In this document: piece after piece, positions 4,832 to 47,977 of the stretch
How positions within the stretch are numbered: position 1 is the stretch's first letter
Layout of the letters: each line of letters opens with the position of its first letter
NCBI GenBank assembly: GCA_019748395.1
Contig: JAIEPM010000106.1
Coordinates: 1 to 47,977, forward strand
Reading direction: 5' to 3'
Source: Candidatus Obscuribacterales bacterium
GTDB lineage: Bacteria; Cyanobacteriota; Vampirovibrionia; Obscuribacterales; Obscuribacteraceae
DNA length: 47,977 nucleotides
The notes under the pieces: generated by a model
Database searches by the model: none
What the model was told of the DNA's origin: nothing
Seen by the model: only the letters and a program-made list of their open reading frames with translations
Made by a program: the position numbers and the translations under genes

Positions 4832-4888
4832 AACAGAAATTTAAGTCGCTGCCGGTTAGATAAAAATCCAGTTTTGGAGGAAGCAAAC

Positions 4889-6241
4889 ATGGTCAAGACA
4901 CAAGCAATCAGGTCGGAAAAAGGGATGTCCCTTGCGACTGTATTGATCATTGCATTGATTTGCACACTTTGGATATCCGGACTTTTCGCCAGTGTCCTTC
5001 CTACTTTCAGCAAAACAAAAGAATCAAGAATTAAGACTGCCGTGAGAGCTGCCAGCGAAGCGGCTTTAGATTGGGCCGTATCAGACCTATCCAACGGCAA
5101 TGTGAACAGTGTTGACGCCACTACTTACGGCCAATCAAAAGTAACAGACGTGCCATCCAATTTACTCTCAACGGGCGGTTTTCCGATCACTTCTCGTGTC
5201 ACCGTCCTGAACGAGCAGCCATCTTATTCAACTAGCCCTGCCTACACAAATGGAACACCGGAGTCATTTCTATACGACCAGACGCTTGACAAAGATCTTA
5301 GCGGCAACGGCGGCAACAATAGATGGCGAGTTGTAACTTCGGTTGCCACCTGTGCAGGTAGAACATCTTCCGTCAGATGTGTTCTCAAACCAATCGCGGC
5401 AACAACGCCTCCGATCACGGGCTGGGGCTGGGGAGCCGTAGCAACAGGCGTGTCATTCCGGCAAAATGGTGCTGGCGCCACGGTGGACTATTACAATTCA
5501 TCAAAGGGTGTGAATCCCGCATCGTTCAGCACGAAAGCCGATCCGAACGACGCCGATACCTCAATCGGCATTCAGGGAAAATCCGGAACAGGCAACAGCG
5601 CAACTTTCAACGGCGGCGGCACCATAGGCGGAACCTTATCCTACACATCAGGCACCACAATATCAGGCAGCCCAACCACGAACGGAACCGACTCCACCTT
5701 CACAGGCAATGTTTTTCCGCCTGTACCTGATTCCAAAGGTCTGCCTTATCTAAACAACAATAATCCGATCAGCGGCTCCTTTACGATTAATCCTGGAAGT
5801 TATCAATTCACCAGCAACTCAACAGCTATTACGGGAGGCCCGATTACAATTCCGGCTACTGCAACAGCGGCCAATCCGGTCAAAATCTTCATCGACAGCG
5901 CCGCAGCCACAGCCATTTCATTGAACGGCAAAAACGGAGTCTTCAATAACCAGAGCGGGATTCCAGCCGCGCTGCAAATTTACATCGTCGGTACCAGCGC
6001 CGTGAACATAGGTGGAAATGGCGATTTCAGAGGAGTGATTTACGCACCTAATGCCGCAGTTACAATCGGCGGAACAGGGGCCATTTATGGAGCAGTCGTC
6101 GGAAACACTGTGACGATGAACGGTTCGGTCAGCGGCATGCACTACGATCAGGCTCTATCACAAGCACCAAGCATTACATTCCCAGGCGGGACAAGCGTAA
6201 CGAATTACCGAAGTGTTGTCAGCTGGCAAGAATTAGACTAA
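4889..6241 (+). CDS. PilX/GspK-like pilus tip protein (start ATG 4889, not TTG 4874)
   Basis: 'RSEKG|MSLATVLIIALICTLWISGLFASVLP' prepilin-like N-terminus lacking Glu+5; TTG 4874 overlaps the GGAGG RBS; near-identical C-terminal domain to 10174..11526. Confidence 0.8.
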   Translation: MVKTQAIRSEKGMSLATVLIIALICTLWISGLFASVLPTFSKTKESRIKTAVRAASEAALDWAVSDLSNGNVNSVDATTYGQSKVTDVPSNLLSTGGFPITSRVTVLNEQPSYSTSPAYTNGTPESFLYDQTLDKDLSGNGGNNRWRVVTSVATCAGRTSSVRCVLKPIAATTPPITGWGWGAVATGVSFRQNGAGATVDYYNSSKGVNPASFSTKADPNDADTSIGIQGKSGTGNSATFNGGGTIGGTLSYTSGTTISGSPTTNGTDSTFTGNVFPPVPDSKGLPYLNNNNPISGSFTINPGSYQFTSNSTAITGGPITIPATATAANPVKIFIDSAAATAISLNGKNGVFNNQSGIPAALQIYIVGTSAVNIGGNGDFRGVIYAPNAAVTIGGTGAIYGAVVGNTVTMNGSVSGMHYDQALSQAPSITFPGGTSVTNYRSVVSWQELD

Positions 6242-6297: not shown

Positions 6298-6324
6298 TAT
6301 ACTTTGGCGCAACGGATTGAGTTC

Positions 6325-9300
6325 ATGGAAAATCAAGACGGCATAAAGAAGCAAGAAATTTCAAAAGAAAAGAAAGAGCAGGATTCGGATATTTCAAAAC
6401 ACAAGAATCTTGCGGTAATCGCTTCAATTCTTTTTTTTCTTTCCGGACTCAGCAGCCTTATATACCAGGTCATCTGGACTAGACAACTTGTATTTGTTTT
6501 CGGTTCAAGTACTTTTGCGTCCTCAACAGTCCTCAGCACTTTTATGGGCGGACTCGCCCTTGGATCGATTTTTGCAGGCAGAAGAGCCGACCGTATAAAA
6601 GATTCGCTTCTAGCTTACGGAATGCTTGAAGGAATAATCGGAATCTGGGCAATCGCAACTCCCTATATGCTGGAGACAGCAGTCCCCCTTTACAAAGCCC
6701 TCTGGCAACAGTTCCATCTCTCGGTAATGCCATTTTCGCTATTGCGCTTTCTGGTTGTAGCAATAATTTTGATTCCGCCCACGGCTTGCATGGGAGCGAC
6801 ATTGCCTTTTTTATCCCGGGCCGTAACTCGAAACATCAACTTGGTTGGCAGTAGCGTCGGCAACCTGTACAGCATAAACACCTTGGGCGCAGTTCTTGGG
6901 GCTTTGGCCGCAGGCTTTTACCTTATTCCTCAATTCGGACTATTCAATACGAACATCAGTGCCGCATGCATAAACATCGCCCTTGCGTTGCTGGTTTTAT
7001 TCATTTCAAAGAAATTTCTGCCGGAAATCCGTGAAGCAGCCAAACCGGTCTTATACGAAGGTAGCGAAACAGGACTGAGTCTGAACGTAAAGGCCTGCTT
7101 GCTTGCATTCGCCATCTCCGGAGCAATAGCAATGATTTACGAGGTAGCGTGGACACGCGCCTTGCTAATGATCATCGGTTCAACGACTTACGCGTTTTCC
7201 ATTATGCTCACAACCTTTCTGGCAGGTATTTTTCTCGGGAGTGCAGCCACCGCCAGATTTTGCGATAAATTGAAAGACCCATTTTTCTGCTTTGCGATTT
7301 TACAGCTACTTCTTTGTGCTTCTACGATCTTATCGATTGAACTTTTCAATCACCTGCCATACTGGAATTTGATTGCAAATCGCCACAATCTGAACAATCC
7401 CAATTTAAGCATGTACACTCGCTTTCTGCTTGCAGCAAGCATTCTTACCCCTGTGGCAATCTGTCTTGGCGCCAGTTTTCCGCTGGCAGTCAAAATTTGC
7501 AGTAAAAGTCTTGAACAAATCGGACGCTCGGTAGGAACGCTTTATTCAGTAAATACTCTGGGTGCAATTATAGGAGCCTTCACAGCAGGATTCATCATTA
7601 TCCCTCTTCTGGGCGCCGAGAAAACTTTGCTGCTTTCGGCAATTACGAATTTTGCACTGGGAACTGTTTTACTGACACTTTGCCCTCAAAAAAGACTCAT
7701 CAAAGCCGCAGCTATAAGCCTGCTGGCTGTCCTTTCATTATGGTCGGCGCTCAAGCAAGAAAGCTGGGATCAGAAGATTATCGCTTGCTCTCAAAAGCTC
7801 AGACGGCATCTTGCAAAAACCGGTACGGATATTCCCGAATTCAGTAAATGGAAAAAGCAAATTGATGATTCTGCAGATATATTGTTCTGGAAAAACGGAT
7901 TATGCGCCAACGTCGCAGTCTTTCGTTTCGATGACAACGTCACAAGCCTCCTCACCAATGGACATATCGATGCCTCGACAAACAGCACTGACGTAGCAGC
8001 ACAGGGGCTGCTGCCGACTGTACCACTTTTGCTGAAGCCGGACGCCGTTGATGTCTGCAATATCGGCTGGGGAAGCGGCATGACGATGGGCTATGCATTT
8101 CTCTTTCCAATAAAGCGTTTAGTCTGCGCCGAGATTGAAAAGGAAGTTATAAGCACTTCCGAATTCTTTCACCAAATCAACCTCGCACCGGAGAAGGATC
8201 CTCGCCTTGAAATCGAAATTAATGACGGAAGAAATTTCCTGCTTTCCACCAATGAAAAATTTGACGTTCTGATTTCAGAGCCTTCAAATCCCTGGCAGGC
8301 CGGAGTCTGCAATTTATACACAACGGAATATTTTGATACTTGCAAAGCAAGATTAAAACCAGAGGGAATCTTTACTCTCTGGTGGCAATACAACGAAGTC
8401 TCTTCCACAAACGTAGCTAGAGTTCTTTCCGCTCTAAAGACAGTTTTCAAACACGTACTGGTATTTGGATCAAGCACCACCGGGGATATCTGCGCTATCG
8501 CCTCGGCCGATCCAATCAAGCTTGACTTGAACAAACTGAAGAGAGGATTTAGTCAGGAAAAAAGAAAAGCCCTCCTGAGCAAAACTTTGGGACTCTCCGG
8601 ACCGGAAGACCTTGCATCCATAATTGCGCTCTCGGAAGAATCAGTCAACCGCATAGCCTCTCAAGCAGCCAGCAACACAGATGATCGAAATTATATAGAG
8701 TTTGACGTTGCTCGCACTTACGAGCATCAGAACTTCAAGCGCAGCAATTCAGAATGGCTGCTAAGCAATGCAGGTCCCCTCTGGGACAGCATTGACTGGA
8801 CGGCTTATACTCCTCAAGAACAAGCAGAGGAAATGGGCCAAATAGCCCTTCATGCGCTCACTCGCAATTCACCAACGGCAAAGCTATGGGCTGAAGAATC
8901 TTTGAAAATAGCGCAGAATCCAACAGCTTATGGTGCACTATCCCAGCTTGCAGCTCAGCAAGAAGGGAACCTGGAATCAGCACTTTCTTTTGCCAATAAA
9001 GCAGTGGCTCTAAGCGAAACAAGGAAGTTCAAACTAGCGGACTTCTATAAAGTCAGAGCAATGGTCGAGTTGTTGGGCGGAGCCTGCCTTGCAGCCAGGC
9101 GCGACTTTGAAAAGTCGCTTCAGTCGAGGCCAGACGACATCGACGCACAGATCAGGTTGGCGCAAACATACCTGCCGGATTATCGTGGCTGGTATCAAAC
9201 TGCGATTATGCCTCTACAAGATATTGGTGTCGCAGACACTAATCCGCGTGAGGTAATTAGATTATTAGTTCCCCAAATGAACAAGATTACAGATCCCAAA

Positions 9301-9750
9301 GCTCACGCTGTTGCGTCGGCACTACTTGGTACAGCTTATTTTAAGACGGGAGAAACAGATAAAAGTATCAGACCTCTTGAAGAATTTTGCAGTAAAAATG
9401 CGGATCGAGAAGCCTTCGGAATTCTGGCGGCCGCATACAAGAAAAAAGGCATTTTCAGCAAGTCGGAATATTACGCACAACAAGCCGAGCAAATGGCAAA
9501 TCGAGAATGCCTCTTTTACCTAGAAACAGCGAAACAACTCATTTCAAGAAAGCAGGAAGAAAAAGCCGTCGAATTTCTCCGAAAAGCTCTAATTGTCCTG
9601 CCGAGCGCAGAAGAAATCAGACCGATCCTCTGGAAGCTCGCAGAGCATAATGAAGAAGCCGAAAAATTGATGTCCAGCATAAAAATCAGTGACGCTGATA
9701 TAGAAGCATACAAGAGTCTACTGAAACGAAAACAGCAAAAGCGAAAATAA
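6325..9750 (+). CDS. Fused MFS-like membrane domains + spermidine synthase-like (Rossmann) domain + TPR C-terminus (alternative TTG start 6304)
   Basis: Two copies of an 'SGLSSLIYQVIWTRQLVFVFGSSTFA' / 'SGAIAMIYEVAWTRALLMIIGSTTYA' half-repeat; 'NIGWGSGMTMGYAF..RLVCAEIEKEVI...INDGRNFLLSTNEKFDVLISEPSNPW'; TPR-like C-terminal helices. Confidence 0.85.
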   Translation: MENQDGIKKQEISKEKKEQDSDISKHKNLAVIASILFFLSGLSSLIYQVIWTRQLVFVFGSSTFASSTVLSTFMGGLALGSIFAGRRADRIKDSLLAYGMLEGIIGIWAIATPYMLETAVPLYKALWQQFHLSVMPFSLLRFLVVAIILIPPTACMGATLPFLSRAVTRNINLVGSSVGNLYSINTLGAVLGALAAGFYLIPQFGLFNTNISAACINIALALLVLFISKKFLPEIREAAKPVLYEGSETGLSLNVKACLLAFAISGAIAMIYEVAWTRALLMIIGSTTYAFSIMLTTFLAGIFLGSAATARFCDKLKDPFFCFAILQLLLCASTILSIELFNHLPYWNLIANRHNLNNPNLSMYTRFLLAASILTPVAICLGASFPLAVKICSKSLEQIGRSVGTLYSVNTLGAIIGAFTAGFIIIPLLGAEKTLLLSAITNFALGTVLLTLCPQKRLIKAAAISLLAVLSLWSALKQESWDQKIIACSQKLRRHLAKTGTDIPEFSKWKKQIDDSADILFWKNGLCANVAVFRFDDNVTSLLTNGHIDASTNSTDVAAQGLLPTVPLLLKPDAVDVCNIGWGSGMTMGYAFLFPIKRLVCAEIEKEVISTSEFFHQINLAPEKDPRLEIEINDGRNFLLSTNEKFDVLISEPSNPWQAGVCNLYTTEYFDTCKARLKPEGIFTLWWQYNEVSSTNVARVLSALKTVFKHVLVFGSSTTGDICAIASADPIKLDLNKLKRGFSQEKRKALLSKTLGLSGPEDLASIIALSEESVNRIASQAASNTDDRNYIEFDVARTYEHQNFKRSNSEWLLSNAGPLWDSIDWTAYTPQEQAEEMGQIALHALTRNSPTAKLWAEESLKIAQNPTAYGALSQLAAQQEGNLESALSFANKAVALSETRKFKLADFYKVRAMVELLGGACLAARRDFEKSLQSRPDDIDAQIRLAQTYLPDYRGWYQTAIMPLQDIGVADTNPREVIRLLVPQMNKITDPKAHAVASALLGTAYFKTGETDKSIRPLEEFCSKNADREAFGILAAAYKKKGIFSKSEYYAQQAEQMANRECLFYLETAKQLISRKQEEKAVEFLRKALIVLPSAEEIRPILWKLAEHNEEAEKLMSSIKISDADIEAYKSLLKRKQQKRK

Positions 9751-10173: not shown

Positions 10174-11526
10174 ATGGTCAGGTCTCAAAGCGTCAGGACG
10201 GAAGAAGGAACCTCCCTTGCAACGGTATTGATAATAGGTCTGGTATGCACACTCTGGATTTCCGGACTCTTCGCCAGCGTCTTGCCCACAACCGGCAAAG
10301 CCAAGGAATCAAGAATCAAGACAGCAGTCAGAGCCGCCAGCGAAGCCGCATTAGACTGGGCCGTATCCGACCTGTCGAACGGAAATACAAACAGCATAGA
10401 TGCAACAACTTACGGTCAATCAAAGACCAGTTCAGTTCCGACTAATTTCCTCGGCGCTGGAGGATTTCCAATAACAGCCCAGGTGACTGTATTGAATACC
10501 CAACCGTCCTATTCCACCAGCCCTTCATACACAAATGGAAGTTCCGAGTCATTCCTCTATGACCAAACACTGGATAAGGATCTGAGCGGCAACGGCGGGC
10601 TCAATCGCTGGAGGGTAGTAACGGCAGTAGCTAGATGCGCAAATAGAACTTCTTCCGTAAGATGCGTTTTGAAACCAATTGCAGCGACAACCCCACCTGT
10701 GACAGGTTGGGGCTGGGGAGCGGTAGCAACAGGTGTATCATTCCGACAGAACGGTAGTGGCGCTACAGTGGACTACTATAATTCATCCACGAATCCAAAT
10801 CCAAGCTCATTCAGTACGAAAGCGGATCCAAACGACGCAGACACCTCAATCGGGCTGCAAGGCAAGAGCGGCACCGGCAACTCTGTCACTTTCAACGGCG
10901 GTGGCACTATAGGTGGGACACTTTCATACACTTCCGGTACCACAATTTCCGGAAGTCCGACTACAAACGGCACTAATGCAGCTTTTACAGGCAACGTCTT
11001 CCCCCCCGTGCCCAGTTCAAAAAACCTTCCATACTTGAACAACAACAACCCCATTAGCGGCTCCTTCACAATTAACCCCGGCAGCTATCAATTCACCAGC
11101 AACTCCACAGCAATAACAGGCGGTCCAATCACCATTCCGGCAACGGCTACTGCCGCCAATCCGGTTAAAATCTTTATCGACAGCGCTGCCGCAACCGCGA
11201 TTTCGCTTAATGGAAAAAACGGTGTTTTCAACAATCTGAGTGGCATACCAGCAGCTCTCCAGATTTACATCGTCGGAACCAGCGCAGTCAATATAGGAGG
11301 CAATGGCGACTTCCGCGGCGTCCTCTATGCACCGAACGCAGCAGTAACGATCAGCGGCACAGGCGCCATTTACGGAGCAGTAGTTGGCAACACCGTCACA
11401 ATGAACGGTTCTGTGAGCGGCATGCACTATGATCAGGCTCTGGCAAATGCCCCAAGCATCAGCTTCCCCGGAGGCACTTCAGTTACAAATTATCGAAGTG
11501 TGGTTAGCTGGCAAGAGTTGGATTAG
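10174..11526 (+). CDS. PilX/GspK-like pilus tip protein, close paralog of 4889..6241
   Basis: 'EEG|TSLATVLIIGLVCTLWISGLFASVLP'; long blocks identical to the first copy; GGAGG RBS at about 10161. Confidence 0.82.
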   Translation: MVRSQSVRTEEGTSLATVLIIGLVCTLWISGLFASVLPTTGKAKESRIKTAVRAASEAALDWAVSDLSNGNTNSIDATTYGQSKTSSVPTNFLGAGGFPITAQVTVLNTQPSYSTSPSYTNGSSESFLYDQTLDKDLSGNGGLNRWRVVTAVARCANRTSSVRCVLKPIAATTPPVTGWGWGAVATGVSFRQNGSGATVDYYNSSTNPNPSSFSTKADPNDADTSIGLQGKSGTGNSVTFNGGGTIGGTLSYTSGTTISGSPTTNGTNAAFTGNVFPPVPSSKNLPYLNNNNPISGSFTINPGSYQFTSNSTAITGGPITIPATATAANPVKIFIDSAAATAISLNGKNGVFNNLSGIPAALQIYIVGTSAVNIGGNGDFRGVLYAPNAAVTISGTGAIYGAVVGNTVTMNGSVSGMHYDQALANAPSISFPGGTSVTNYRSVVSWQELD

Positions 11527-13442: not shown

Positions 13443-14768
13443 ATGAACAGCAAACATTCAACAAGGTCCTCCAGAGGACAATCGGTAGTTATCATGGTTC
13501 TGCTGGGTGTTCTAGCCGGGCTCTGGTTAACTGCAATTTTCGGCTCTCTCTTGCCGACATTTCGAAAGGTTGGAGTAAATAAAGCAACAAATCTGGCGCG
13601 CACCGCGGCTGAAACAGGCTTAGACTGGGCCGTAGATAAGATGAGCAGCGCTTCAACCAGAAACTCTGTTGATCTTGGGACACCGGTAGCCTATACAGGC
13701 ACTCTACCCTCCGGCGTCACCGGCATCAGTGTCACAGTCAGCAACGTAGCTTGCCCGACAAATGCAGCTTGCTACACTTCAGCACTCGATCCTAATAATG
13801 CCGGCAACCAGTTAAACGGCGCAGGTAATCAATGGCGAACAGTTACATCCACAGCAACATTGGCATCAGGCAGAAGCAAAGCGATAAGAGCAGTATTAAT
13901 GCCGCAGGTCACAAATTCATCCAACCCTTTCTGGGTTTGGGCGATGGCTTCTTACACCACAGTTTCAGGCAACACGCCATCGACCCCAATCAAAACATAC
14001 AGCTATGATTCATCAAACGGCAAGAACCCTCAGACTTCCAAAAACAACTATGGTGGTGATGTGGGTGCTAACGGCAGCATAGATCTGGGCAACTCGAACA
14101 TATATGGAAAGGTAAGAACATACGGGAAAAGCGCCAACGTAACGGGCTCCGCTGCAAAAGTATATGAAACTATTACAGCCACCGGCAGCGTGAGTGGAGC
14201 CATAGTGGGGAACGGCAAAGCGAACATCAATGTGCTGAACAACGGTGGAGCTAGTGGGGTGCCATCAGCAACACCAATAGTTCAAAATGCCGCAGCAAAT
14301 CCAATTCCACTCCTAAACATTCCGAGTCACAGCACTGCGGCAACCTTGCCTGGTTCAGGAAACGTCGCAGCCGGACAATACAAGGTGAATACTCTGGCCG
14401 CTCAAAATATAACCATCACATCCGGCCCGGTGGAAATTTTTGTGGAAGGTTCAAGTTCCAAAATCGACTTTTCTGGAAACATCACACTTGCAAACGGACT
14501 TACTCCCAAGGATCTCCGTATCTATTACTCCGGTTCAGAAGATGTGCACCTGGATAACGGCAAATCATTCACAGGTGTAGTTTACGCCCCGAATGCTCTT
14601 GTCCATTTCGATAATGGCGGAAAACTATTCGGCTCGGTGGTGTCTAAGAGCATTGTTTTGGATAATGGAAGTGAATTTTATTATGATACTAACCTAGCCA
14701 ACCTCTCTATGGGCGGAGGCGGAGTATCAGTGAGTGGATTCAGAACGATTTCATACCAGGAGCTATAA
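13443..14768 (+). CDS. PilX/GspK-like pilus protein (second cassette, divergent)
   Basis: 'RSSRG|QSVVIMVLLGVLAGLWLTAIFGSLLPTF'; C-terminus 'FTGVVYAPNALVHFDNGGKLFGSVVSKSIVLDNGSEFYYD' parallels the other two copies. Confidence 0.8.
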   Translation: MNSKHSTRSSRGQSVVIMVLLGVLAGLWLTAIFGSLLPTFRKVGVNKATNLARTAAETGLDWAVDKMSSASTRNSVDLGTPVAYTGTLPSGVTGISVTVSNVACPTNAACYTSALDPNNAGNQLNGAGNQWRTVTSTATLASGRSKAIRAVLMPQVTNSSNPFWVWAMASYTTVSGNTPSTPIKTYSYDSSNGKNPQTSKNNYGGDVGANGSIDLGNSNIYGKVRTYGKSANVTGSAAKVYETITATGSVSGAIVGNGKANINVLNNGGASGVPSATPIVQNAAANPIPLLNIPSHSTAATLPGSGNVAAGQYKVNTLAAQNITITSGPVEIFVEGSSSKIDFSGNITLANGLTPKDLRIYYSGSEDVHLDNGKSFTGVVYAPNALVHFDNGGKLFGSVVSKSIVLDNGSEFYYDTNLANLSMGGGGVSVSGFRTISYQEL

Positions 14769-37961: not shown

Positions 37962-40811
37962 ATGGGCGATTCTAGAAAAACCGAGACAGACAAAACAGCA
38001 AGAACAACTGCTGATAAACCGGCGGACCTTTCGCCGCAAGGAACTTTTGAAGATCAGAAAAGGGACAGCGACGCTCAGCGCGCAGCGGCCGGCGGCAAAG
38101 GCTCAAGCGGCCTCCCGGAACTCTCCATCACAGGCGACAAAGAAAAGGAAGGCTCAGACAAGAGCACGCCAGTAAAGGAAGCCCCGAAAGCAGCAGATAG
38201 TTGGTCAACGGCGGATCTCAAACAAGCAATTCAATATCTTGAACGCATCAAAATCTCCGGCGCCCGGACAGTGGGTTCAACAGCCGGCGACAGAGCTCAA
38301 GAAAATACATACAGGACTCTCAGCGACTCAATATTGCCGACTCTCAAACGGGAAGGAAAAATTAGCGCTGATTGGGAGATATTTCCATCACAAGCTCAAT
38401 CACCCGGAGACAAGGTCGGCGCAGATTTCTTGCTTGTAAACACTAAAACCGGCGCGTTTCACTTTTTAGATGCCACCGCAAATCCAAACAAAGAAAACGT
38501 TTTCAGGCTCAGAGCCGATGGAGTCATTCTGGTTGACAATGCACTCTTCGATCAGTTTGGATCTCTGAAAGTAGACAACCCTGACATGACCGGGATCAGA
38601 GCGACTGATCTTCGCGATGATATGCTGAGGCAGATTGAATCTTTGACCAAGAGCAAAACGCCTTTCAGGCTGGGAACAGACGGAACGCCGATGCCTTCAT
38701 TCAGCAATAAGGCAACCGACGAACAGGGCAAAGCACAGATCCAGAGACTCACAGAATGGGCAAACGCACAAGCCAAAAGCTCCGGCAACCCTGGTGACTT
38801 CCGCGACATGGCCGATAAAGTCGGTCGCGCTTACACTCATATCGATAGAGCAGCCAGAGAAGTAAAATCTCCCAAAATGGCCGAGAGCATTCGCGAAGCA
38901 AGCGAAAGAGAAATTGCCAGATTCGTTTATGCAAAATACAAGGATGAGCCTTACAAAGCAGTCGACAGCAAAGCCAACAACAATCCAATGCGAATTCTTA
39001 AAGACGGAAAAATGCTTATGGATGGTGAAGGCGGCGTGATCCACGACGGAGGCAAACTGCCGGAACATGTGGAAGAAGCTCGAAAAAATCTGGTTTCCGA
39101 AAAAGCTTTGCTTTCCAGACTGACAAACAAAGAACTGGCTGCTATGGGAGCTGATACTTCAAGCTTCGAAGGATTGTCTGGTGCAGACCGCACAAACGCC
39201 ATAGAGAAAGCTGTCAGAACACAGCCCAAGTTCAGATCTGAAGTTTCAAAACTGATGAGCGTGTTTATGGACAATCGCGCCATTATCGAGAACGGCGGTG
39301 CTGTTGGTGAAGGCAGACCTGTGATCGCCGAAAGCATCATAGCTAAGTTGAAAGGACAGACAAAAGAAGGACTGCTTAAGGAAGGTCCAAAAGCAACGGA
39401 CAAACCCGCAACAGCGGCATCAACAGAAACAAAAACTGAGACTGAGACTGCGTCAAAAAGTCCTTCCCTGACCGAGAACCTAGAAAACAAACTGGCCAAG
39501 TCGGCAGAACAACTTTCTGTTTATCTGGATAATGCAAAAGTTGATCCGGCCAGCCCCAGCAAAGACGTCCGAGATGCAATCGAGATCTTAATTGAAGGAC
39601 AGAATACCCGCCGAGCCGCAAATCCTGCAGATAAGGAGCTCTGGCCTAAGGCAGAACTTGATCATCTAGTTAAGCTCAATGATGCGTACAAAGATTCAGC
39701 TCATCCGCAGCATACAGAAGCGGTCAGAGAGTTGAATGCAATCTTAAATAAGAAGGCCGACGCAGCCGAGGCAAAAGCAGTTAAAGAAGCAGATCTTGCA
39801 CTTGCACAGCTCAAGGGTAATCCCACCTTTGAAAATCTAAACAATGAAACACGCATCGCAGATACTGTAAAGACTCTAAACGATCGCATCATGGGCAAGA
39901 TCCCTGCACAAAACAAAGGCGAGTTCATGGCCAATCAATACCGAGAGGCCTTCCGCAAACAGCTGGGAGCAGCAACGATAGCCGACCTGCCTGATTCGAT
40001 TAAGTATCTAAAGATAGACTTTGTACAAGGTATGGGTACAGAAGTCAAAGTCACAGCGAATGGAACTATTGAAATTCCATCGACAATGATGAAGTTCCAT
40101 CCAAAGAAAGTGATTGCAGATGTTTATGCACATGTTTCCGGTCAATCTATGCTTCATATCCTCAATCAAGGTGAGAACAGCCACTTAACTGCAAGATCGA
40201 TCAAACCAATTGTCGACAGGATTTCAACTAAAGCAGTCGAAATAATTGAAGCCAGAAACAAAGGCGCAGCCGCTAAGCCTGCAGCGATAAGCAGCGATGC
40301 TGCTGCAAGCGAGCGCAAAGTGGAACTTGCAAAAGACAGCGCAACTGTAACGGCCTGGGATGGTGAAAACCTGACCTTTGGAAGCGAGAAGTTTCATATC
40401 AAGGCTGAACTCGAAAAGCTAAATCGTGAAAGAGAAACCAAAATCAAAGGACTTGAAGAGGAATTACGCGTAGTTAAGAGCAAGCAAAAACCGACAGATG
40501 CAGATCTGAGCAATATGAAAGAACTGGAGACCAGAATCGCGGTCGAAAAACAGAACGCGAGAGTTGCAAGCGATCTGCACCAGGCACTGAGTGGAAACAG
40601 AGGCACGGCGGCACAAGCTAAAGCAAGCGAGCTGGTTAAAGCAGCAGCCGACAAAGCAATTGCCGATCACCTCGGCAAGAAGGGCGGCTCAGGCGGCTCT
40701 CTCAGCCGCAGTGCAGCAGTAGGCATGGTGCTGAGCACGCTTGCTACCATGTATTTTGCGTCTGCAAAACCGGCTATGGCTGATACTTACGAAGGCAGCT
40801 ATTCTAAATAG
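37962..40811 (+). CDS. Large hypothetical protein (949 aa) with C-terminal hydrophobic segment
   Basis: Long ORF, charged/Ala-rich, C-term 'AAVGMVLSTLATMYFASAKPAMADTYEGSYSK'. Confidence 0.75.
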   Translation: MGDSRKTETDKTARTTADKPADLSPQGTFEDQKRDSDAQRAAAGGKGSSGLPELSITGDKEKEGSDKSTPVKEAPKAADSWSTADLKQAIQYLERIKISGARTVGSTAGDRAQENTYRTLSDSILPTLKREGKISADWEIFPSQAQSPGDKVGADFLLVNTKTGAFHFLDATANPNKENVFRLRADGVILVDNALFDQFGSLKVDNPDMTGIRATDLRDDMLRQIESLTKSKTPFRLGTDGTPMPSFSNKATDEQGKAQIQRLTEWANAQAKSSGNPGDFRDMADKVGRAYTHIDRAAREVKSPKMAESIREASEREIARFVYAKYKDEPYKAVDSKANNNPMRILKDGKMLMDGEGGVIHDGGKLPEHVEEARKNLVSEKALLSRLTNKELAAMGADTSSFEGLSGADRTNAIEKAVRTQPKFRSEVSKLMSVFMDNRAIIENGGAVGEGRPVIAESIIAKLKGQTKEGLLKEGPKATDKPATAASTETKTETETASKSPSLTENLENKLAKSAEQLSVYLDNAKVDPASPSKDVRDAIEILIEGQNTRRAANPADKELWPKAELDHLVKLNDAYKDSAHPQHTEAVRELNAILNKKADAAEAKAVKEADLALAQLKGNPTFENLNNETRIADTVKTLNDRIMGKIPAQNKGEFMANQYREAFRKQLGAATIADLPDSIKYLKIDFVQGMGTEVKVTANGTIEIPSTMMKFHPKKVIADVYAHVSGQSMLHILNQGENSHLTARSIKPIVDRISTKAVEIIEARNKGAAAKPAAISSDAAASERKVELAKDSATVTAWDGENLTFGSEKFHIKAELEKLNRERETKIKGLEEELRVVKSKQKPTDADLSNMKELETRIAVEKQNARVASDLHQALSGNRGTAAQAKASELVKAAADKAIADHLGKKGGSGGSLSRSAAVGMVLSTLATMYFASAKPAMADTYEGSYSK

Positions 40812-40819
40812 AAACAGCC

Positions 40820-41638
40820 TCAGTCATTAACGGACAGTACCAGCTGTGGTGCTGGAATATGATGGTCTACGCGCATCGGTACAATTGCCGTGCCGACTAC
40901 GAAAAACTCGATCACATGCGAGCTCCAGCCGTAATTGCCTTCAAATATATCAACCCCAACGATACCTTCGGCTTTCAGACCCTCGGCTTCATTCTGCATT
41001 CTTTCCATAGCCAGCTCTCTGGCATCATAAAGGGCCTGAGTAAAATTGCTCATTTCAGTATTTTGGCCCATGGTCTTGAACCACTGGCCGAAGGATTGAT
41101 GCGCCACGTGATAAACACAATTACCCATAACCATGCCTACCGGTCTGTAACCGGAGCGAAGCAGAGTCCAGAAGTCCTGTCCGGAGAGATCACTTGTGAA
41201 TGGTTTTCCAGTCACGGTCTTGAAAGAGCCGTCGCCGGAACGATGCTTAACGGCAGTTCCAATCGCCACAAATTCAGCCAGATCTGAATTCCATTCCATA
41301 TGTTTGACTTTCAAGCGAACACCAACAATGCCGTCGGCGCCAAGTTCATGAGCTTCCTCTTCCATGCGTGTCATAGCCAGCTCACGAGCATGGTAAAGAG
41401 CCTGCGTTAGAACTACCATCTCTTCGTTCTTGGTCCAGCGTGCAGCTTGATAGCCGATATGATAAATCGAAGTGCCAACAACCAGACCAACAGGATCAAA
41501 TCCGGCTTCTTTAACCAGCAAGAACTCATTGACGGATAAATCACTTGTAAAAAGGGCTCGGTGTCCGCCTTTTCCCTGCATCCATTGCAAGCGTTCTTTA
41601 GCATGCTCCGGCAGGTCTTCCATTGGATTGTTGGGCAT
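40820..41638 (-). CDS. Tandem-duplicated YbjQ-like (UPF0145/heavy-metal-binding-type) protein
   Basis: Two modules, each ending 'LGADGIVGVRLKVKHMEWNSDLAEFVAIGTAVK' / 'LKAEGIVGVDIFEGNYGWSSHVIEFFVVGTAI'. Confidence 0.7.
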   Translation of the reverse strand: MPNNPMEDLPEHAKERLQWMQGKGGHRALFTSDLSVNEFLLVKEAGFDPVGLVVGTSIYHIGYQAARWTKNEEMVVLTQALYHARELAMTRMEEEAHELGADGIVGVRLKVKHMEWNSDLAEFVAIGTAVKHRSGDGSFKTVTGKPFTSDLSGQDFWTLLRSGYRPVGMVMGNCVYHVAHQSFGQWFKTMGQNTEMSNFTQALYDARELAMERMQNEAEGLKAEGIVGVDIFEGNYGWSSHVIEFFVVGTAIVPMRVDHHIPAPQLVLSVND

Positions 41639-41657
41639 TTCCTATCTCCTGTCCTTT

Positions 41658-42662
41658 TTATTCATCGTCTTCGTCGAGCTTATCAATTAATTTAGTACCG
41701 GCAGGCTCAAAATAACTATTTTCGTAATCGGCTGTGGACGAAAGCCTGCCATAGCTTTTGGATGCAAGATTCAAAACCAGAAGCGGTGAGCTGTGTTTTT
41801 GTTCTCTCTCGGGATGAGCAGCAACCGCAGTGCCCAGCATCGTGAAATGCAGAAGCAAATCGTAGTAACTTGTATTGTTATATTCGTATTCGATTGTTTC
41901 CATTTTCGGTTCGATTGATACGCCTACGGCACCATCAGCTTTCAGCAAAGACAGCTCCGACTGCATGCGTAAATCAGCCATTCGGGCAGCCTGCTTGTAA
42001 CCGTTGGTAAAAGTCGGAAGCTCCTGATTCGGTGCGAACCATTGATAAATACTTTGCCTGGTTTGATAATCCATATGCATGTAATAAGAGCAGGTGCCCA
42101 TCACCACCGACAGTGGCATATATCCTGAACGATAAAGTTGCCAGAACTCCTGTCCGTTTAAAGCGCTGGTGAAAGGTTCTTGCCCTACCGGCCAGCCTGG
42201 AATCTTAATGGCGCTGCCGAAAGCCGTGAACTCGGTCACTCCGGAACTCCAGTCATGAGACCGGGCATTTATTCGTACTCCTATTACTCCTGAAGCTCCA
42301 AGTAAATGAGCTTCCTGCTTCAAGCGCTCAATTGCTTTCCGGCGCGCCTCGGTATGCGCTTTTGTAATCTCTTGAATTTCACCGGTGCTGCTGCGGTAAC
42401 GCGAAAAGCTGCCCCAGAAACCAATCCTGTAGAAAGAGGTGCCCATGACCTGCCCTAGCGTCTGAAAACCGGCTTCCCGAGTAAGCATGTATTCACGGCT
42501 GCTCAAGTCACTGGCAAAGAACTCTTTGCCGTATGCACGTTCACGTAAAATTCGATCTCTGGCTATCGGAGGAATTTCACCACGCTCTATAGCAGCAATG
42601 GCTGCCTGTTGCCGCTCTTTAGCTTGCCTTTCAGCTTCTGTTTCTTTGCGCCAGAATGGCAT
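41658..42662 (-). CDS. Tandem-duplicated YbjQ-like protein, paralog of the neighbouring gene
   Basis: 'LLGASGVIGVRINARSHDWSSGVTEFTAFGSAIK' and 'LKADGAVGVSIEPKMETIEYEYNNTSYYDLLLHFTMLGTAV'. Confidence 0.68.
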   Translation of the reverse strand: MPFWRKETEAERQAKERQQAAIAAIERGEIPPIARDRILRERAYGKEFFASDLSSREYMLTREAGFQTLGQVMGTSFYRIGFWGSFSRYRSSTGEIQEITKAHTEARRKAIERLKQEAHLLGASGVIGVRINARSHDWSSGVTEFTAFGSAIKIPGWPVGQEPFTSALNGQEFWQLYRSGYMPLSVVMGTCSYYMHMDYQTRQSIYQWFAPNQELPTFTNGYKQAARMADLRMQSELSLLKADGAVGVSIEPKMETIEYEYNNTSYYDLLLHFTMLGTAVAAHPEREQKHSSPLLVLNLASKSYGRLSSTADYENSYFEPAGTKLIDKLDEDDE

Positions 42663-43183: not shown

Positions 43184-43306
43184 TTAGAACTCTGCTACCA
43201 GACCGAATGAAGCAATCAAAAGAATGCAGGCGAAATAGAAGAGGAAAAACCAAGTCCATCTGGCAATCATCTGAATTTCGGTTGGTTTGTCTTCTTTTGC
43301 GGCCAT
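43184..43306 (-). CDS. 40-aa single-TM small protein, putative small subunit of the cytochrome b complex (absent from the supplied ORF track)
   Basis: ATG at 43306, stop TAA at 43184; translation MAAKEDKPTEIQMIARWTWFFLFYFACILLIASFGLVAEF; upstream GAAGAGGTAGAT RBS-like; directly downstream of the MvhD-like gene. Confidence 0.7.
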   Translation of the reverse strand: MAAKEDKPTEIQMIARWTWFFLFYFACILLIASFGLVAEF

Positions 43307-43342
43307 ATCTACCTCTTCAACAAATTCCTTTTATCGCCAAGA

Positions 43343-43741
43343 CTACTTAGTGGCTTCCGGTGCCGCCAACTTAGCAACTTCATCCTTGAAGTCTTTGACT
43401 TCTTTGAGCAAACGCTGCGGTTGCACTTTTGAGAGCCAGAGCCCAATCACACGACGTCGGTCCACAGTTTTCTTCAAACCGGGAGGACGTTCGCCGAGCA
43501 AACGCTCACGAATCATTTTGTTGCCTTCACGGAAATAACAGTCGCCGATCTGGCAGCCCGTCACCACCACACCATCAGCACCGTTCTTCAACGCTGCTTC
43601 AATCATGAGGGGTTGAATCATTCCCGAGCAAGGGAACTTAACGACATAGCAACCAGGCATGTCCTTGAATTGGCTTTGTGAGTCAACCTGATTACTCAGG
43701 TCGCAAGAACGTTCACAAATTAGCGTCATTATCTTGGTCAT
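43343..43741 (-). CDS. MvhD/FlpD-like (hydrogenase iron-sulfur delta subunit family) protein
   Basis: Five Cys in 'ICERSCDL...FPCSGMIQPLMIEAALKNGADGVVVTGCQIGDCYFREGN'. Confidence 0.82.
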   Translation of the reverse strand: MTKIMTLICERSCDLSNQVDSQSQFKDMPGCYVVKFPCSGMIQPLMIEAALKNGADGVVVTGCQIGDCYFREGNKMIRERLLGERPPGLKKTVDRRRVIGLWLSKVQPQRLLKEVKDFKDEVAKLAAPEATK

Positions 43742-43750
43742 ATCGGCATC

Positions 43751-44929
43751 CTAGGATTGTGAAAGAAGAGCCTTGATTTTGTTTGTCACCTCGCCGTCCG
43801 GTTGCTCCGGAAGGTCGATGGCATCGAAAGCGCAAGCGCCTACACATAGTCCGCATCCGGAGCAACGATTAGGCAATACTGTCGCCCTGAGTTTGAAACG
43901 TGAACCTGCCGGTGCCGGAACCATTTCGATGGCTTCGTAGGGGCAGTCCTTGTCGCAAAGTGAACAACCGGTACACTTGTCACCGACTACTTCAGCCGGA
44001 TCAAAGGGTTCCACCTTACCTGAAGCGGCTTCCACCAGGAAGGGCAAAGGCAGGAAAGTGAAGAAAAGCGTGATACCGGAGATGACTACCCAGTAAGTTG
44101 TGGGATCCATCTTGGTCAGCATGTAATAAGGCCAGAGGAAGAACCAGTCCATTTCGAACTCGGTGGGCTGAGTGGTGAGAACAGCCATCTTCTCCATATG
44201 AATCGGGAAGAAGAAAACGAAAACAAGCACAATCGCCACAAGCGCGTAATTAATAACAGGCGGCGGCGTAACAACCGGTCTTGCCATACGAACATAGTGC
44301 AGCCAGAGACCGAATAGCAAGAAGAACGACAGTCCTATGTGTATGAACAAATAGTTGGAAAGAGTCAGGTTGGTGATTGCCGAACCGTTGATGAACCAGG
44401 CTTTCAAAGCCTGCCCGAGAACCGGAATAGCTTCCAGAGCGGTAACCGTCATACGGGTCAGTACAAGCGACCTTTCGTCCCAGACCAGGTAATAACCGGT
44501 TTGGCCGATGAAGAGCACCAGGATCAAAAGAATCACACCGGTGAACCATTGAAGCCAGCGATACTGCCTGTAGCGGTCAGTGAACCAAACACGAATGGCG
44601 TGCAAAACAATCGTAAGAACCATGGCGTCACCGGCATAGCGGTGTATGCCGCGGACAACATTGCCGAAAGGAATTTTGTTGGTTATGTAATCAACTGAAG
44701 TGAAAGCGTTAATCAGTTCTTTCGAAGAATAAGCACTGTCGATGGTCGGAATGTAATATCCGAAAAGCAACAAGCCGGACAGGAAAAGTACCCAGAGGAA
44801 GAACTGCGGAATAGCACCGTGGTAATAGAAAGGGTTGTATTTGCTGGTGAGCGCTACGTTGGTGTAGTGCTCGATCCATTGCATCATTTTGCTTAGACCG
44901 TCTGTATAGACTTTTTGTTGCTGCGCCAT
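43751..44929 (-). CDS. Cytochrome b fused to a C-terminal 2x[4Fe-4S] ferredoxin domain
   Basis: 'GNVVRGIHRYAGDAMVLTIVLHAIRVWF' and 'LFIHIGLSFFLLFGLWLHYVRM' (both HX13H); 'CTGCSLCDKDCPYEA' and 'CSGCGLCVGACAFDA'. Confidence 0.9.
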   Translation of the reverse strand: MAQQQKVYTDGLSKMMQWIEHYTNVALTSKYNPFYYHGAIPQFFLWVLFLSGLLLFGYYIPTIDSAYSSKELINAFTSVDYITNKIPFGNVVRGIHRYAGDAMVLTIVLHAIRVWFTDRYRQYRWLQWFTGVILLILVLFIGQTGYYLVWDERSLVLTRMTVTALEAIPVLGQALKAWFINGSAITNLTLSNYLFIHIGLSFFLLFGLWLHYVRMARPVVTPPPVINYALVAIVLVFVFFFPIHMEKMAVLTTQPTEFEMDWFFLWPYYMLTKMDPTTYWVVISGITLFFTFLPLPFLVEAASGKVEPFDPAEVVGDKCTGCSLCDKDCPYEAIEMVPAPAGSRFKLRATVLPNRCSGCGLCVGACAFDAIDLPEQPDGEVTNKIKALLSQS

Positions 44930-44977
44930 CTGACGACTACCTTCTCTTGACTTTCAACTTTAGTGCGAACCGAGAAA

Positions 44978-45499
44978 CTATTTTTTGGCTGGAAGAATTG
45001 TTTTTTCTTCCGCGCCCCAACGACCCATGGCTTGAATCCCGAGTGCGCCCGCTAAGAGTGCGAGTCCGAGAAACAAAGCGTATGCGTTATAAACGTAGTT
45101 CTTATCTACATTCATCAGACCAACGACTTTTTTGAGGTTCTCTTCACCGCCGAGGCTGCTTTCGATACTGGCGCGAAGCTCTTTTCCGTAAACCTCACCG
45201 TTTTTCTTCAGCAACTCAGCTTCCCAGTTTTTGAGAGCATCGGCGCCGGCCTGCTCTTCCGACTGAGGCTGCTTGGGCAGCATGTCCAGCATGGAAACGC
45301 CGATGCTGCCGTATTGCTTCATGAGTTCGGGAATGCGCACACAAGATTCCCCGGAAACTCTGGCTTCCGGATTGACTTGCGCAGGCAGAAGTTCTGCCGC
45401 AGGCATAAACAATGCAGCGCATCCCAGCGTGGCCGCAGCTGCAGCCAGGCAGATCACTATGCTTATAGGTCCTGGTTTTCTCTCTTCGGCGGAGCCCAT
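44978..45499 (-). CDS. Hypothetical membrane protein in the cytochrome b operon (TM at both ends)
   Basis: 173 aa; hydrophobic segments near the N- and C-termini; no CxxCH heme motif. Confidence 0.65.
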   Translation of the reverse strand: MGSAEERKPGPISIVICLAAAAATLGCAALFMPAAELLPAQVNPEARVSGESCVRIPELMKQYGSIGVSMLDMLPKQPQSEEQAGADALKNWEAELLKKNGEVYGKELRASIESSLGGEENLKKVVGLMNVDKNYVYNAYALFLGLALLAGALGIQAMGRWGAEEKTILPAKK

Positions 45500-45502
45500 C
45501 GT

Positions 45503-45832
45503 TTACTTCCTTCCCCCTTGCCTCTCAGAATCCGTTATGGAGCCTGTTTGATCGTTCTTACATTTTGCATTTTTGCGAGCTTCTAGAAACTTCTCGATTT
45601 TTTCGAAGAGCTCCACTCTTTTAGTCAGGCGACCTTTCGCCTTCTCCTCAAAATAGATGAAGTAGCCTTGCACGGTGACCAGCAGCAAAGTTGTTGCGGT
45701 GCCACCGAGAAGCACTCCCCAGTCGGAGAGTCCGCCATGCTCGTTGACCTGTCTCCACCCGGCAAAAAACCAGGACAGACTAATCACCGAGGCGGCGAAC
45801 ATACTCCATTTGAGTGACCAGTGGATGCTCAT
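45503..45832 (-). CDS. Small two-TM hypothetical protein in the cytochrome b operon
   Basis: 109 aa; two hydrophobic segments; tightly packed between operon genes. Confidence 0.6.
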   Translation of the reverse strand: MSIHWSLKWSMFAASVISLSWFFAGWRQVNEHGGLSDWGVLLGGTATTLLLVTVQGYFIYFEEKAKGRLTKRVELFEKIEKFLEARKNAKCKNDQTGSITDSERQGGRK

Positions 45833-45839
45833 CGATACC

Positions 45840-47690
45840 TCAAGATGCAGCCGAAGCAGTTTCTGTCTTCACGGTTTTAGCCGGTTCTTGCGGCGCCTTC
45901 ATCTTTGGAATCATGACGATACAAGCAACTGTCGTGACTGCTCCAAGTACCATCCAGATCCAGTCGATTTCAGGAACGGTAAGCGGATAGAAAGCTCCCG
46001 AAACAGACTTCTCGGTACCTGGTGTCATGCGGTTGCAGAAAGTAATGTAGTCTGCGCACCAGCGGTTGCTCACCATATAGTCCAGGGTGTTCACATAAGG
46101 CACCGGAGTTGGTACTCCGGCTTTATCGACAACCATGAAGCTCGGGATAGCATTGAAGAGGGGATCCAGCCAGCCACCGGCATTCGGATTGTTGGCGATT
46201 GCATAAATCGCTTCAATATTCTCTTTGCCCGGATAATCTTTCAGATGATGCAGGCTCTGATAATCCCAGTAGTTAGGATTGAAATTGGCTTTGTTGGCCG
46301 GGTCGCTATTGCTTGCCAGTGCCACCAGTTTCTCGACTTCATCGCCTTTGGCTACGCTGCCGAGCATCTTGCAAAGTCCATAAGTCCAGCCCTGGGTTAA
46401 CGGTCCGAAGAACATTTCGGTGATCGCCATGTAGTAATAGACTACGGCCCAGAAGGTCTGAATTGCAGCCAGCACACCCATGGCGATACAGCCCTTGACG
46501 GCAACGGCTTTTTCTTGAACCGTTTTGAAAGACTTCGTATAAACGAAGAGCTGCATGAGGATACCGACATCGATAAGACCCCAGAGGAATGAGCGCCAGT
46601 AGGGCGGGTCATAGTGAATGTTGGCGATGTTGACGATGATCAGGACCGAGAAAACGATCCAGCATACAAAGCCCATAAGCGCAACATAGAAGATGAACGG
46701 ACGTTTGTGAATATCCTTTTCTGCGCCTGTTGCCCAGACATCGATGAATGGCAGCAGAATTACTGAAATCGGAATGACCATCGTGATTTCGGTAGCGACA
46801 ACGGGCTCCAGATATTTGTACATCTGGTATAGACCGAGGAAGTACCAGTCGGAAAGGATCGGCAGCGGTGTGACGTCCGGATTGGAACGGTGACCAAGTG
46901 CTGCAGGCATGATAATCGCCACAATCACGAGCATCATGGTCACGATAATACGCTTGGTCCAGTTAAACGGAATGCGCTTGAAGCCTGTTCTATAGAAATA
47001 TAGTTCCACCAGAATAAGCGGAATGGCTGAAAACGCCATGTGAATCGAGAAAAAGCGGGTGATCGTTTCCTGAGTGATAGCACCACCGGCGCCCAGCAAG
47101 AATTCTGCAGTGTTCCAACCAAGGTGCAGGGACTTGACCAGCGGCAGGTAATAGTCACCCATGACCGGGAACTGGTCCATGTAGGTCGGGAATGTTGCGA
47201 ATACCTTTGTAGCCCAAAATGCGCGCTGGTTCCAGATCAACAGATAACCGGTCAGACCGGAGTACATTGAAAGCAAAAGGGTCACAAGTGCAATTGCAAT
47301 GTTGAATTCTTTGCCCGGCTTATAGTCGGCGCAAATAAACATGCGGAAAAGACGCATCGTGGCGGCGATAATCATCGCGTCCGCCCCGTATTTATGCACA
47401 CCTCTCCAGATATTGCCGAAAAGAATTTCGTGCTGAATATGCAGAATCGAATCAAAGGCTGCCGGTTTTGTCGGCACGTACCACATGATCAAAACGCAAC
47501 CCGAAAGAATAACAAGAAACCAAACCAGGTAGAAAATTCCACCCAACGAATAGAAAGGATTGGTTTTCGCCTCCTGGTGGTGGTGCTCGTCGAATATGTC
47601 GATATTATTCAAACGAGTCTGCAGCCAGTCACCGGCTTTAGTAAGTGCTCCGGCTAAGCTGGAGCTTTTGGCATCTGCTGTACTAGGCAA
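45840..47690 (-). CDS. Cytochrome b-like protein (616 aa) with long C-terminal extension; heme b_H ligands missing
   Basis: 'GNIWRGVHKYGADAMIIAATMRLFRMF', 'GLTGYLLIWNQRAFWATKV', 'ITRFFSIHMAFSAIPLILVELYFYR', 'PLPILSDWYFLGLYQM'. Confidence 0.9.
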   Translation of the reverse strand: MPSTADAKSSSLAGALTKAGDWLQTRLNNIDIFDEHHHQEAKTNPFYSLGGIFYLVWFLVILSGCVLIMWYVPTKPAAFDSILHIQHEILFGNIWRGVHKYGADAMIIAATMRLFRMFICADYKPGKEFNIAIALVTLLLSMYSGLTGYLLIWNQRAFWATKVFATFPTYMDQFPVMGDYYLPLVKSLHLGWNTAEFLLGAGGAITQETITRFFSIHMAFSAIPLILVELYFYRTGFKRIPFNWTKRIIVTMMLVIVAIIMPAALGHRSNPDVTPLPILSDWYFLGLYQMYKYLEPVVATEITMVIPISVILLPFIDVWATGAEKDIHKRPFIFYVALMGFVCWIVFSVLIIVNIANIHYDPPYWRSFLWGLIDVGILMQLFVYTKSFKTVQEKAVAVKGCIAMGVLAAIQTFWAVVYYYMAITEMFFGPLTQGWTYGLCKMLGSVAKGDEVEKLVALASNSDPANKANFNPNYWDYQSLHHLKDYPGKENIEAIYAIANNPNAGGWLDPLFNAIPSFMVVDKAGVPTPVPYVNTLDYMVSNRWCADYITFCNRMTPGTEKSVSGAFYPLTVPEIDWIWMVLGAVTTVACIVMIPKMKAPQEPAKTVKTETASAAS

Positions 47691-47977
47691 TTCCCCCGGC
47701 CTCCAGTGAAACGATACTGATTTTTTCTCCGTCTGTTTTCACAGTAAATTGTCTTGGAGGACGCGGAGCTGGTCCGGAAACCACCTTGCCTCCTTGAGCA
47801 ATGTCGTAAACGCTTAAGTGACACGGACAGGCAAAAACCGGTCCGTTTGGTTTGAAGTTATAGCCCTTGAGACACTCTTCAGGATCTTTGACGAAATTGA
47901 AGATGCAACCAAGGTGCGGACAAATACGGCTGTAAGCCACAACTTCGCCGGTGGGCAGCTTAACTGCAAATCCAGGA
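47683..47977 (-). CDS. Rieske [2Fe-2S] protein, 5' end truncated by window edge
   Basis: 'CPHLGC' and 'CPCHLSVYD'; frame stays open (PGFAVKLPTGEVVAYSRICPHLGC) to the window end. Confidence 0.9.
   Translation of the reverse strand, partial: PGFAVKLPTGEVVAYSRICPHLGCIFNFVKDPEECLKGYNFKPNGPVFACPCHLSVYDIAQGGKVVSGPAPRPPRQFTVKTDGEKISIVSLEAGGIA

Follow-up and report, generated by a model that had tools for sequence, protein, structure and literature searches.

How might one gene cluster that encodes a single Rieske protein and two dissimilar cytochromes b, the second with a ferredoxin domain attached, give rise to a working quinol-oxidizing complex? The question is posed by a stretch of 47,977 nucleotides (hereafter the window) from Candidatus (Ca.) Obscuribacterales bacterium (GCA_019748395.1, contig JAIEPM010000106.1), which constitutes the end of a contig (C676) in a 6.47-Mb draft genome. 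All seven open reading frames (ORFs) listed for this cluster in a preliminary description are present on the minus strand (window 43184–47976), and neighbouring genes overlap or lie in near contact. That description proposed that the two cytochromes b may form a heterodimer, and that the ferredoxin domain together with an MvhD-like protein could serve as a cytosolic iron–sulfur (Fe–S) wire. A heterodimer with divided functions and an electron-carrying arm is the reading that we prefer, with a probability of about 0.65 as judged from sequence comparison.

Complementary loss in the two cytochromes b

Both cytochromes b match the Cytochrome_B family (PF00033) in Pfam, and their closest sequence matches in the PDB are b6 of the b6f complex. 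The first, of 616 aa (window 45840–47690; start codon TTG), is classed as a mono-heme-type cytochrome b from this family match, the alignment of heme ligands and the AlphaFold match to known cytochrome b structures; the second, of 392 aa (window 43751–44929), carries a C-terminal 2x[4Fe-4S] ferredoxin domain (Fer4-type domains at residues ~317–371). Single-chain AlphaFold models of the 616-aa and 392-aa proteins (predicted local distance difference test, pLDDT, 72.5 and 74.5, respectively) both match cytochrome b of bc1, with a template-modeling (TM) score to target of ~0.55–0.64; the 392-aa model also matches b6 (0.72–0.79), and the Pseudomonas aeruginosa structure 8smr (bc1-cbb3) is among the fold matches.

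Heme-ligand and motif positions were counted by alignment to PetB plus PetD of true cyanobacteria, in 59 proteins of the 616-aa type and 62 of the 392-aa type; the assignment of these His positions to hemes bL (p-side) and bH (n-side) is one that we take to carry over from established b6f and bc1 structures. In the 616-type, both bL ligands (b6 H86 and H187) are His in 59/59 proteins, and all 59 have WATK in helix cd1 and SDWY at the site of PEWY. Neither bH ligand is retained: the position of H100 is occupied by Arg in 57 proteins and Lys in two, and that of H202 by Tyr, Phe or Leu, so that His is found in 0/59 at each. The window protein has H99 and H217 as bL ligands and keeps WATK and SDWY, with the bH ligands replaced by R113 and Tyr/Phe; the other widely conserved His residues of the 616-type all lie outside the b6 ligand positions. 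The 392-type shows the complementary pattern: all four heme His are present in 62/62 proteins (H96, H110, H197, and H211 in the window), and neither PEWY nor WAxK is found in any of the 62. Gly121 of helix C, a heme-packing residue that in b6 is near bH, is invariant in the 392-type (62/62) and is Ala, Gly, Ser or Cys in the 616-type. Other Rieske/cytochrome b pairs, found on contigs C155 and C300 of this genome and among its relatives, have by reading four His and KPEWY or KPDWY, so that the complementary loss is neither a peculiarity of this lineage nor an artefact of alignment. A comparison of n-side and p-side helix entropy as a test for relaxed constraint gave no useful difference (0.84/0.81 and 0.80/0.87 bits).

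In a maximum-likelihood tree of the N-terminal cytochrome b domain, the 616-type and 392-type form sister clades (100/98) that are distinct from PetB and from the remaining cytochromes b of this lineage, and each clade splits by order. Long branches are flagged in this tree, and the sister relationship is likely; a simple reading is that one gene was duplicated before the three orders separated and that the two copies then divided the work between them. Alone, the 616-type would be unable to pass on the low-potential electron, and the 392-type would be unable to carry out the usual quinol oxidation at the quinol-oxidation (Qo) site; because of this, we strongly infer that the two form a heterodimer. 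The idea of such a pairing in the preliminary description thus gains strong support at the level of sequence, from sister paralogs that are always co-encoded and that each lack the half-function kept by the other.

The predicted product of the cluster is an asymmetric quinol-oxidizing Rieske/cytochrome b complex, encoded in one operon with a cbb3-type oxidase. Menaquinol, for which futalosine-pathway biosynthesis genes are present in 11/11 genomes, would be oxidized at a single Qo site, that of the half made up of the 616-aa and Rieske proteins. The first electron would pass from the Rieske protein to a diheme cytochrome c, then to CcoO, CcoN, and O2. The second would move from bL(616) to bL(392) and on to bH(392), because the 616-aa half, having no bH, would be a dead end by itself. 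From bH(392), the electron may reach menaquinone at a quinone-reduction (Qi) site, and/or the 2x[4Fe-4S] domain, the FlpD cluster, and a soluble partner. This pattern of defects has a laboratory precedent in Rhodobacter, in which an engineered bc1 heterodimer that lacks bH in one cytochrome b and has a blocked Qo site in its partner functions by bL–bL transfer (PMC4330944). The halves of those cross-inactivated enzymes (WB-BN / NBS-BW) are likewise joined by bL–bL transfer alone, although they are laboratory fusions of near-identical cytochromes b with no Fe–S arm, whereas the loss described here is natural and class-wide.

Two groups of side observations concern these proteins and their relatives. 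A mostly hydrophilic stretch of ~150 aa (window ~45965–46418) precedes the last transmembrane helix of the 616-aa protein and is present in Obscuribacterales; Caenarcanales 616-type proteins are without it and are ~445 aa long. Further Rieske/cytochrome b sets occur in the same or related genomes (loci L151–L158): one with two membrane proteins of 380–480 aa, another inside a nitrate-reductase-like cluster, and another with a cytochrome b–c fusion adjoining an oxidase.

An eleven-gene operon with a cbb3-type oxidase

The seven genes of the window are the 3′ part of an 11-gene operon: ccoN, ccoO, ccoS, diheme cytochrome c, Rieske, cytochrome b, two small ORFs, cytochrome b/ferredoxin, FlpD, and a transmembrane peptide. 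The Rieske [2Fe-2S] protein of the preliminary description is present (window 47683–47976; PF00355, E = 5.6e-9), although the ORF holds the C-terminal half alone (97 aa, with CPHLGC ... CPCHLSVYD), as contig C676 ends inside the gene. The N-terminal part (~96 aa) lies on a second contig of the same genome (C151, 4116 bp), which encodes on one strand ccoN, ccoO (two CXXCH), ccoS, a diheme cytochrome c lipoprotein, and this Rieske fragment. The fragment on C151 ends in ...VRKIP and the window part begins with PGFAVKL..., the ends of the two contigs having ~5 bases in common. The cytochrome c and oxidase genes missing from the window are therefore found directly upstream, and in relatives with uncut contigs the upstream and core genes are contiguous.

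Downstream of the 616-aa gene are orf109 (window 45503–45832), a small membrane protein of no known family whose position is conserved in all three orders, and orf173 (window 44978–45499), a small membrane protein that is weakly conserved across the compared loci, its counterpart being a 72-aa protein in Caenarcanales with none recognized in Vampirovibrionales. The 392-aa gene is followed by that of a 132-aa FlpD/MvhD-like [2Fe-2S]-type protein (window 43343–43741; PF02662, 1.8e-20; PDB match to MvhD 5odc_D, 8e-14), and by a 40-aa peptide with a single transmembrane helix (window 43184–43306), for which the comparison of loci reveals a conserved C-terminal FGxxAEF. The FlpD-like protein, previously credited with five Cys, has six (residues 9, 13, 31, 38, 63, and 68), of which four are conserved. 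Searches with Pfam and NCBIfam recognized the Rieske protein, both cytochromes b, the ferredoxin domain, and FlpD, and gave no match for the 109-, 173-, and 40-aa proteins. In a scan for promoters and terminators, sites were no more numerous than in shuffled sequences.

Of 67 loci compared, the full set of six core genes is present in 54, of which 49 have the four upstream genes as well. The core order on one strand is identical in all 54, and the order including the cbb3-type oxidase and cytochrome c genes is identical in every one of the 49 loci of sufficient length. Since the core order is kept in 54/54 loci, the clustering is not due to chance, and the co-occurrence of Fe–S and cytochrome b genes, the lack of which would have spoken against the preliminary description, is firmly conserved across related genomes. 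Median intergenic gaps are -8 to 34 bp, with one exception of 205 bp; in Vampirovibrionales, 290 bp separates orf109 from the cytochrome b/ferredoxin gene. The operon is found in Obscuribacterales, Caenarcanales, and Vampirovibrionales, including Vampirovibrio chlorellavorus and Ca. Obscuribacter phosphatis. Contamination or misassembly is rejected as an explanation: the order is the same in independent metagenome-assembled genomes (MAGs) and in these two named organisms, and the other half of the window operon was located on C151.

The operon was not found in the listed genomes of one family (f2) of the same class. A contig scan over 85,462 species with two peptide patterns, by which distant relatives could be missed, returned only Vampirovibrionia plus three ferredoxin-only matches, and at this sensitivity no other phylum yielded the operon. 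A strong match to the 392-type is lacking in 5 of 50 genomes searched from another family (f1), one of them 98% complete; gene loss or assembly gaps thus occur. Two loci in MAGs labelled Chloroflexi and Proteobacteria (L088 and L112) hold the operon at 64–72% identity to the window, and these MAGs look misnamed. The phylum of the source genome also includes genomes with cyanobacterial petB.

Elsewhere in the window, three DUF7305 proteins (4874–6241, 10174–11526, and 13443–14768) are encoded in one stretch, beside a 1148-aa protein with a spermidine-synthase domain (6304–9750) and an N-methylation pilin-like protein (3902–4831). A 949-aa protein without a Pfam match (37962–40811) is charged in its N-terminal part and contains a hydrophobic segment close to the C terminus. 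Two proteins encoded side by side at 40820–42662 (272 and 334 aa) are each built of similar, repeated halves, and the 334-aa protein matches YbjQ_1.

The predicted iron–sulfur arm and the direction of electron flow

The eight ferredoxin Cys of the 392-type are each present in 62/62 proteins, save one at 61/62, and the four FlpD Cys are conserved across the three orders. The single substitution that was noted (locus L041, genome G020) places Tyr at the fourth Cys of the first ferredoxin motif (C329), and the cluster may be altered in that protein. FlpD is a single-copy gene in 12/12 genomes, and always belongs to this operon. Together, the ferredoxin domain and FlpD are collinear with positions 567–773 of HdrA2, whose ferredoxin–FlpD module moves electrons between soluble enzymes in Hdr/Mvh systems. 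A search of the 12 genomes with the HdrA2 model gave no match above the cut-off; the strong matches were the operon's own ferredoxin domain and FlpD, and the others were weak and covered the ferredoxin part only. An Hdr partner for FlpD is rejected, as these 12 genomes have no HdrA match above the cut-off and no second FlpD; the arm is thus not part of an Hdr system.

The 392-aa model comprises helices A–D and two further membrane helices, followed by the ferredoxin domain, which by this topology would be on the n side, provided that the N terminus is there too. The motif YNPxYYHG (residues ~31–39; window 44813–44839) lies near the N terminus of the 392-aa protein, on the n side, where b6f carries Cys35 (for heme c_n); YYHG is present in 62/62 proteins of the 392-type and in none of the 616-type. 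The invariant His37 of this motif may mark a Qi site or a hand-off point to the ferredoxin arm. With moderate confidence, we infer that bH(392) is linked through the 2x[4Fe-4S] domain and FlpD to a soluble cytoplasmic carrier or enzyme (ferredoxin, or possibly AprAB in Caenarcanales), beside or in place of a Qi site.

As to partners, NuoD is encoded in 12/12 genomes and NuoF in one; complex I is therefore unlikely to be an entry point for NADH, whereas traffic of ferredoxin is plausible, with ferredoxin rather than NADH the likely donor to complex I in these cells. In eight loci of the Caenarcanales type (L123, L124, L125, L127, L128, L130, L131, and L146), AprB and then AprA are encoded downstream on the other strand, convergent with the operon, and ATP sulfurylase (Sat) is encoded in 4/4 Caenarcanales genomes searched; the same four genomes gave only weak PAPS-reductase-like matches. 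An AprA model found no match in 50 Obscuribacterales-family genomes and none in the control genomes either, though AprA of f3 scores 800 bits with this model. AprAB as a general partner of FlpD is rejected, given this result and the adjacency of AprAB to the operon in Caenarcanales only; it is a candidate for a lineage-specific partner in that order.

The anatomy of the Fe–S wire proposed in the preliminary description is supported by its Cys residues and by the confinement of FlpD to this operon. Provided that the heterodimer forms, net export, by which O2-driven bifurcation of quinol pushes low-potential electrons into the arm, has odds a little short of even; net import is somewhat less likely, and an arm doing neither is improbable. 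The Rieske motifs CPH[LM]GC and CPCH[LF]SV[YF]D occur in 56/56 proteins; with an invariant Ser in CPCHxS but either Tyr or Phe at the aromatic position, they do not reveal the Rieske potential. Several points weigh against the preferred reading. The models are of moderate confidence (pLDDT 72–75) and give a poor account of the ferredoxin domain and the Qo loop; no soluble FlpD partner was found in Obscuribacterales; and the 392-aa protein may have an ordinary Qi site, as its invariant YYHG would allow, in which case much of the flow may be a normal Q-cycle. Moreover, ferredoxin domains of the canonical CxxCxxCxxxC type usually have a low potential, which would make export uphill unless the Rieske potential is high.

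The likeliest alternative is import, which we hold to be somewhat doubtful. Ferredoxin or an AprAB-like dehydrogenase would deliver electrons via FlpD and the 2x[4Fe-4S] domain to bH(392), where, with the Qo-derived electron, they would reduce menaquinone at a Qi site, making up a ferredoxin:O2 respiratory chain. The scheme resembles proposals for a ferredoxin–quinone reductase in b6f cyclic electron flow, and arms of the MvhD/HdrA type normally bring electrons inward from donors. The pattern of NuoD without NuoF makes ferredoxin the likely cytosolic donor, and YYHG, invariant at the place of Cys35, may mark a Qi site. However, complex I could already oxidize ferredoxin with proton pumping, such that an additional route looks wasteful; no donor was identified; and import alone leaves the split of Qo and bH between paralogs unexplained.

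An ordinary Q-cycle in an asymmetric shell is unlikely. By constructive neutral evolution, the complex would have come to possess one Qo and one Qi, with the ferredoxin domain and FlpD serving only to regulate or stabilize it. Copies that arise by duplication often come to complement one another through neutral losses, and engineered asymmetric bc1 turns over normally (PMC4330944); nevertheless, the near-complete conservation of the eight ferredoxin Cys (61/62 at the least) and of the four FlpD Cys across three orders points to working clusters, and FlpD has no other user in the genome. Very unlikely are two separate complexes, a homodimeric quinol oxidase of the 616-aa protein, Rieske and cbb3 and an independent ferredoxin:menaquinone reductase of the 392-aa protein and FlpD: although each cytochrome b could in principle homodimerize, and the oxidase too shares the operon so that adjacency is no proof of one complex, a 616-aa homodimer without bH in either monomer would have no exit for the second electron, the 392-type keeps bL (62/62), which a plain ferredoxin–quinone reductase would not need, and its gene stays inside the one operon in all three orders.

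Relation to known complexes and significance

With b6f and bc1, the predicted complex shares the Rieske protein, the cytochrome b fold, the bL ligands, the Qo-type WA and (S)DWY motifs, and a cytochrome c acceptor. It differs in having two paralogous cytochromes b with divided functions, one without the bH ligands and the other without the Qo motifs, as well as ~six transmembrane helices in the 392-aa protein, the ferredoxin domain with FlpD, and no c1 or f, the place of which is taken by the diheme cytochrome c lipoprotein (two CXXCH in 53/54). By its sequence features it is a member of the Rieske/cytochrome b superfamily that fails canonical bc1/b6f features on each of these counts: bH ligands in one cytochrome b, Qo motifs in the other, and c1/f. 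The bc1-cbb3 and bcc-aa3 supercomplexes of complexes III and IV similarly have complex III, oxidase, and cytochrome c genes together (here, ccoN, ccoO, and cytochrome c accompany complex III in 49/49 loci, and on C151 for the window genome), but possess a single type of cytochrome b and no ferredoxin arm.

The succession of a two-[4Fe-4S] ferredoxin domain and MvhD is shared with the HdrA2/HdrA-MvhD and QmoB modules; here, however, the module sits on a cytochrome b, with no HdrA flavin domain and no Hdr catalytic subunits. QmoABC combines the HdrA-like flavoproteins QmoA and QmoB with AprAB, whereas in these genomes no HdrA-like protein was found and AprA/AprB are neighbours in Caenarcanales only. 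For two complexes of the anammox bacterium Kuenenia (Kuste4569-4574 and Kustd1480-1485), with Rieske potentials > +300 mV, it has been proposed that bifurcation of quinol yields a low-potential electron that leaves bN and reaches an n-side acceptor by way of Fe–S clusters (PMC12954380). Export here would be an O2-driven bifurcation of similar kind, although those complexes have b6 plus subunit IV homodimers, multiheme c, and a flavin adenine dinucleotide (FAD)-containing NAD(P) reductase, as opposed to a split cytochrome b pair and cbb3; no gene for an FAD-containing NAD(P) oxidoreductase or other flavoprotein was found in the operon. The complex is thus not of the Hdr/Mvh or Qmo type, nor an anammox-type NAD(P) complex.

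The nearest published account concerns some Melainabacteria, in which petB/petC beside O2 reductases, with a III/IV fusion in Obscuribacter, have been read as a (partial) b6f (PMC6349859). The open-access literature, to which our search extended and which leaves aside subscription papers, contained no description of this gene set, the split, the second cytochrome b or the Fe–S arm; the new elements are the split cytochrome b pair and the ferredoxin arm. Exchange between the bL hemes of two monomers in bc1/b6f was earlier probed by engineering asymmetry into the dimer (PMC4330944). A dimer of this design, so far produced only by engineering, seems to have arisen in nature and to have persisted throughout a bacterial class of non-photosynthetic cyanobacterial relatives; in it, transfer between the bL hemes would be indispensable and open to direct test. 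The fusion of a ferredoxin domain to a b6-like cytochrome b, in the sister lineage of oxygenic cyanobacteria, bears on electron exchange between ferredoxin and b6f. It is also relevant to the quinol-based bifurcation towards an acceptor in the cytosol that has been proposed for anammox bacteria (PMC12954380).

The fullest version of the export reading, which we consider unlikely when taken as a whole, is that of a class-wide natural heterodimer in which quinol is bifurcated at one Qo site, with the reduction of O2 by cbb3 covering the energetic cost. Electrons would travel from bL to bL to bH and through the arm to cytosolic ferredoxin (AprAB in Caenarcanales), and the ferredoxin could re-enter the chain via a complex I that lacks NuoEFG. 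If true, this export and re-entry of electrons would amount to a respiratory analogue of cyclic electron flow, in a group that is sister to the photosynthetic cyanobacteria.

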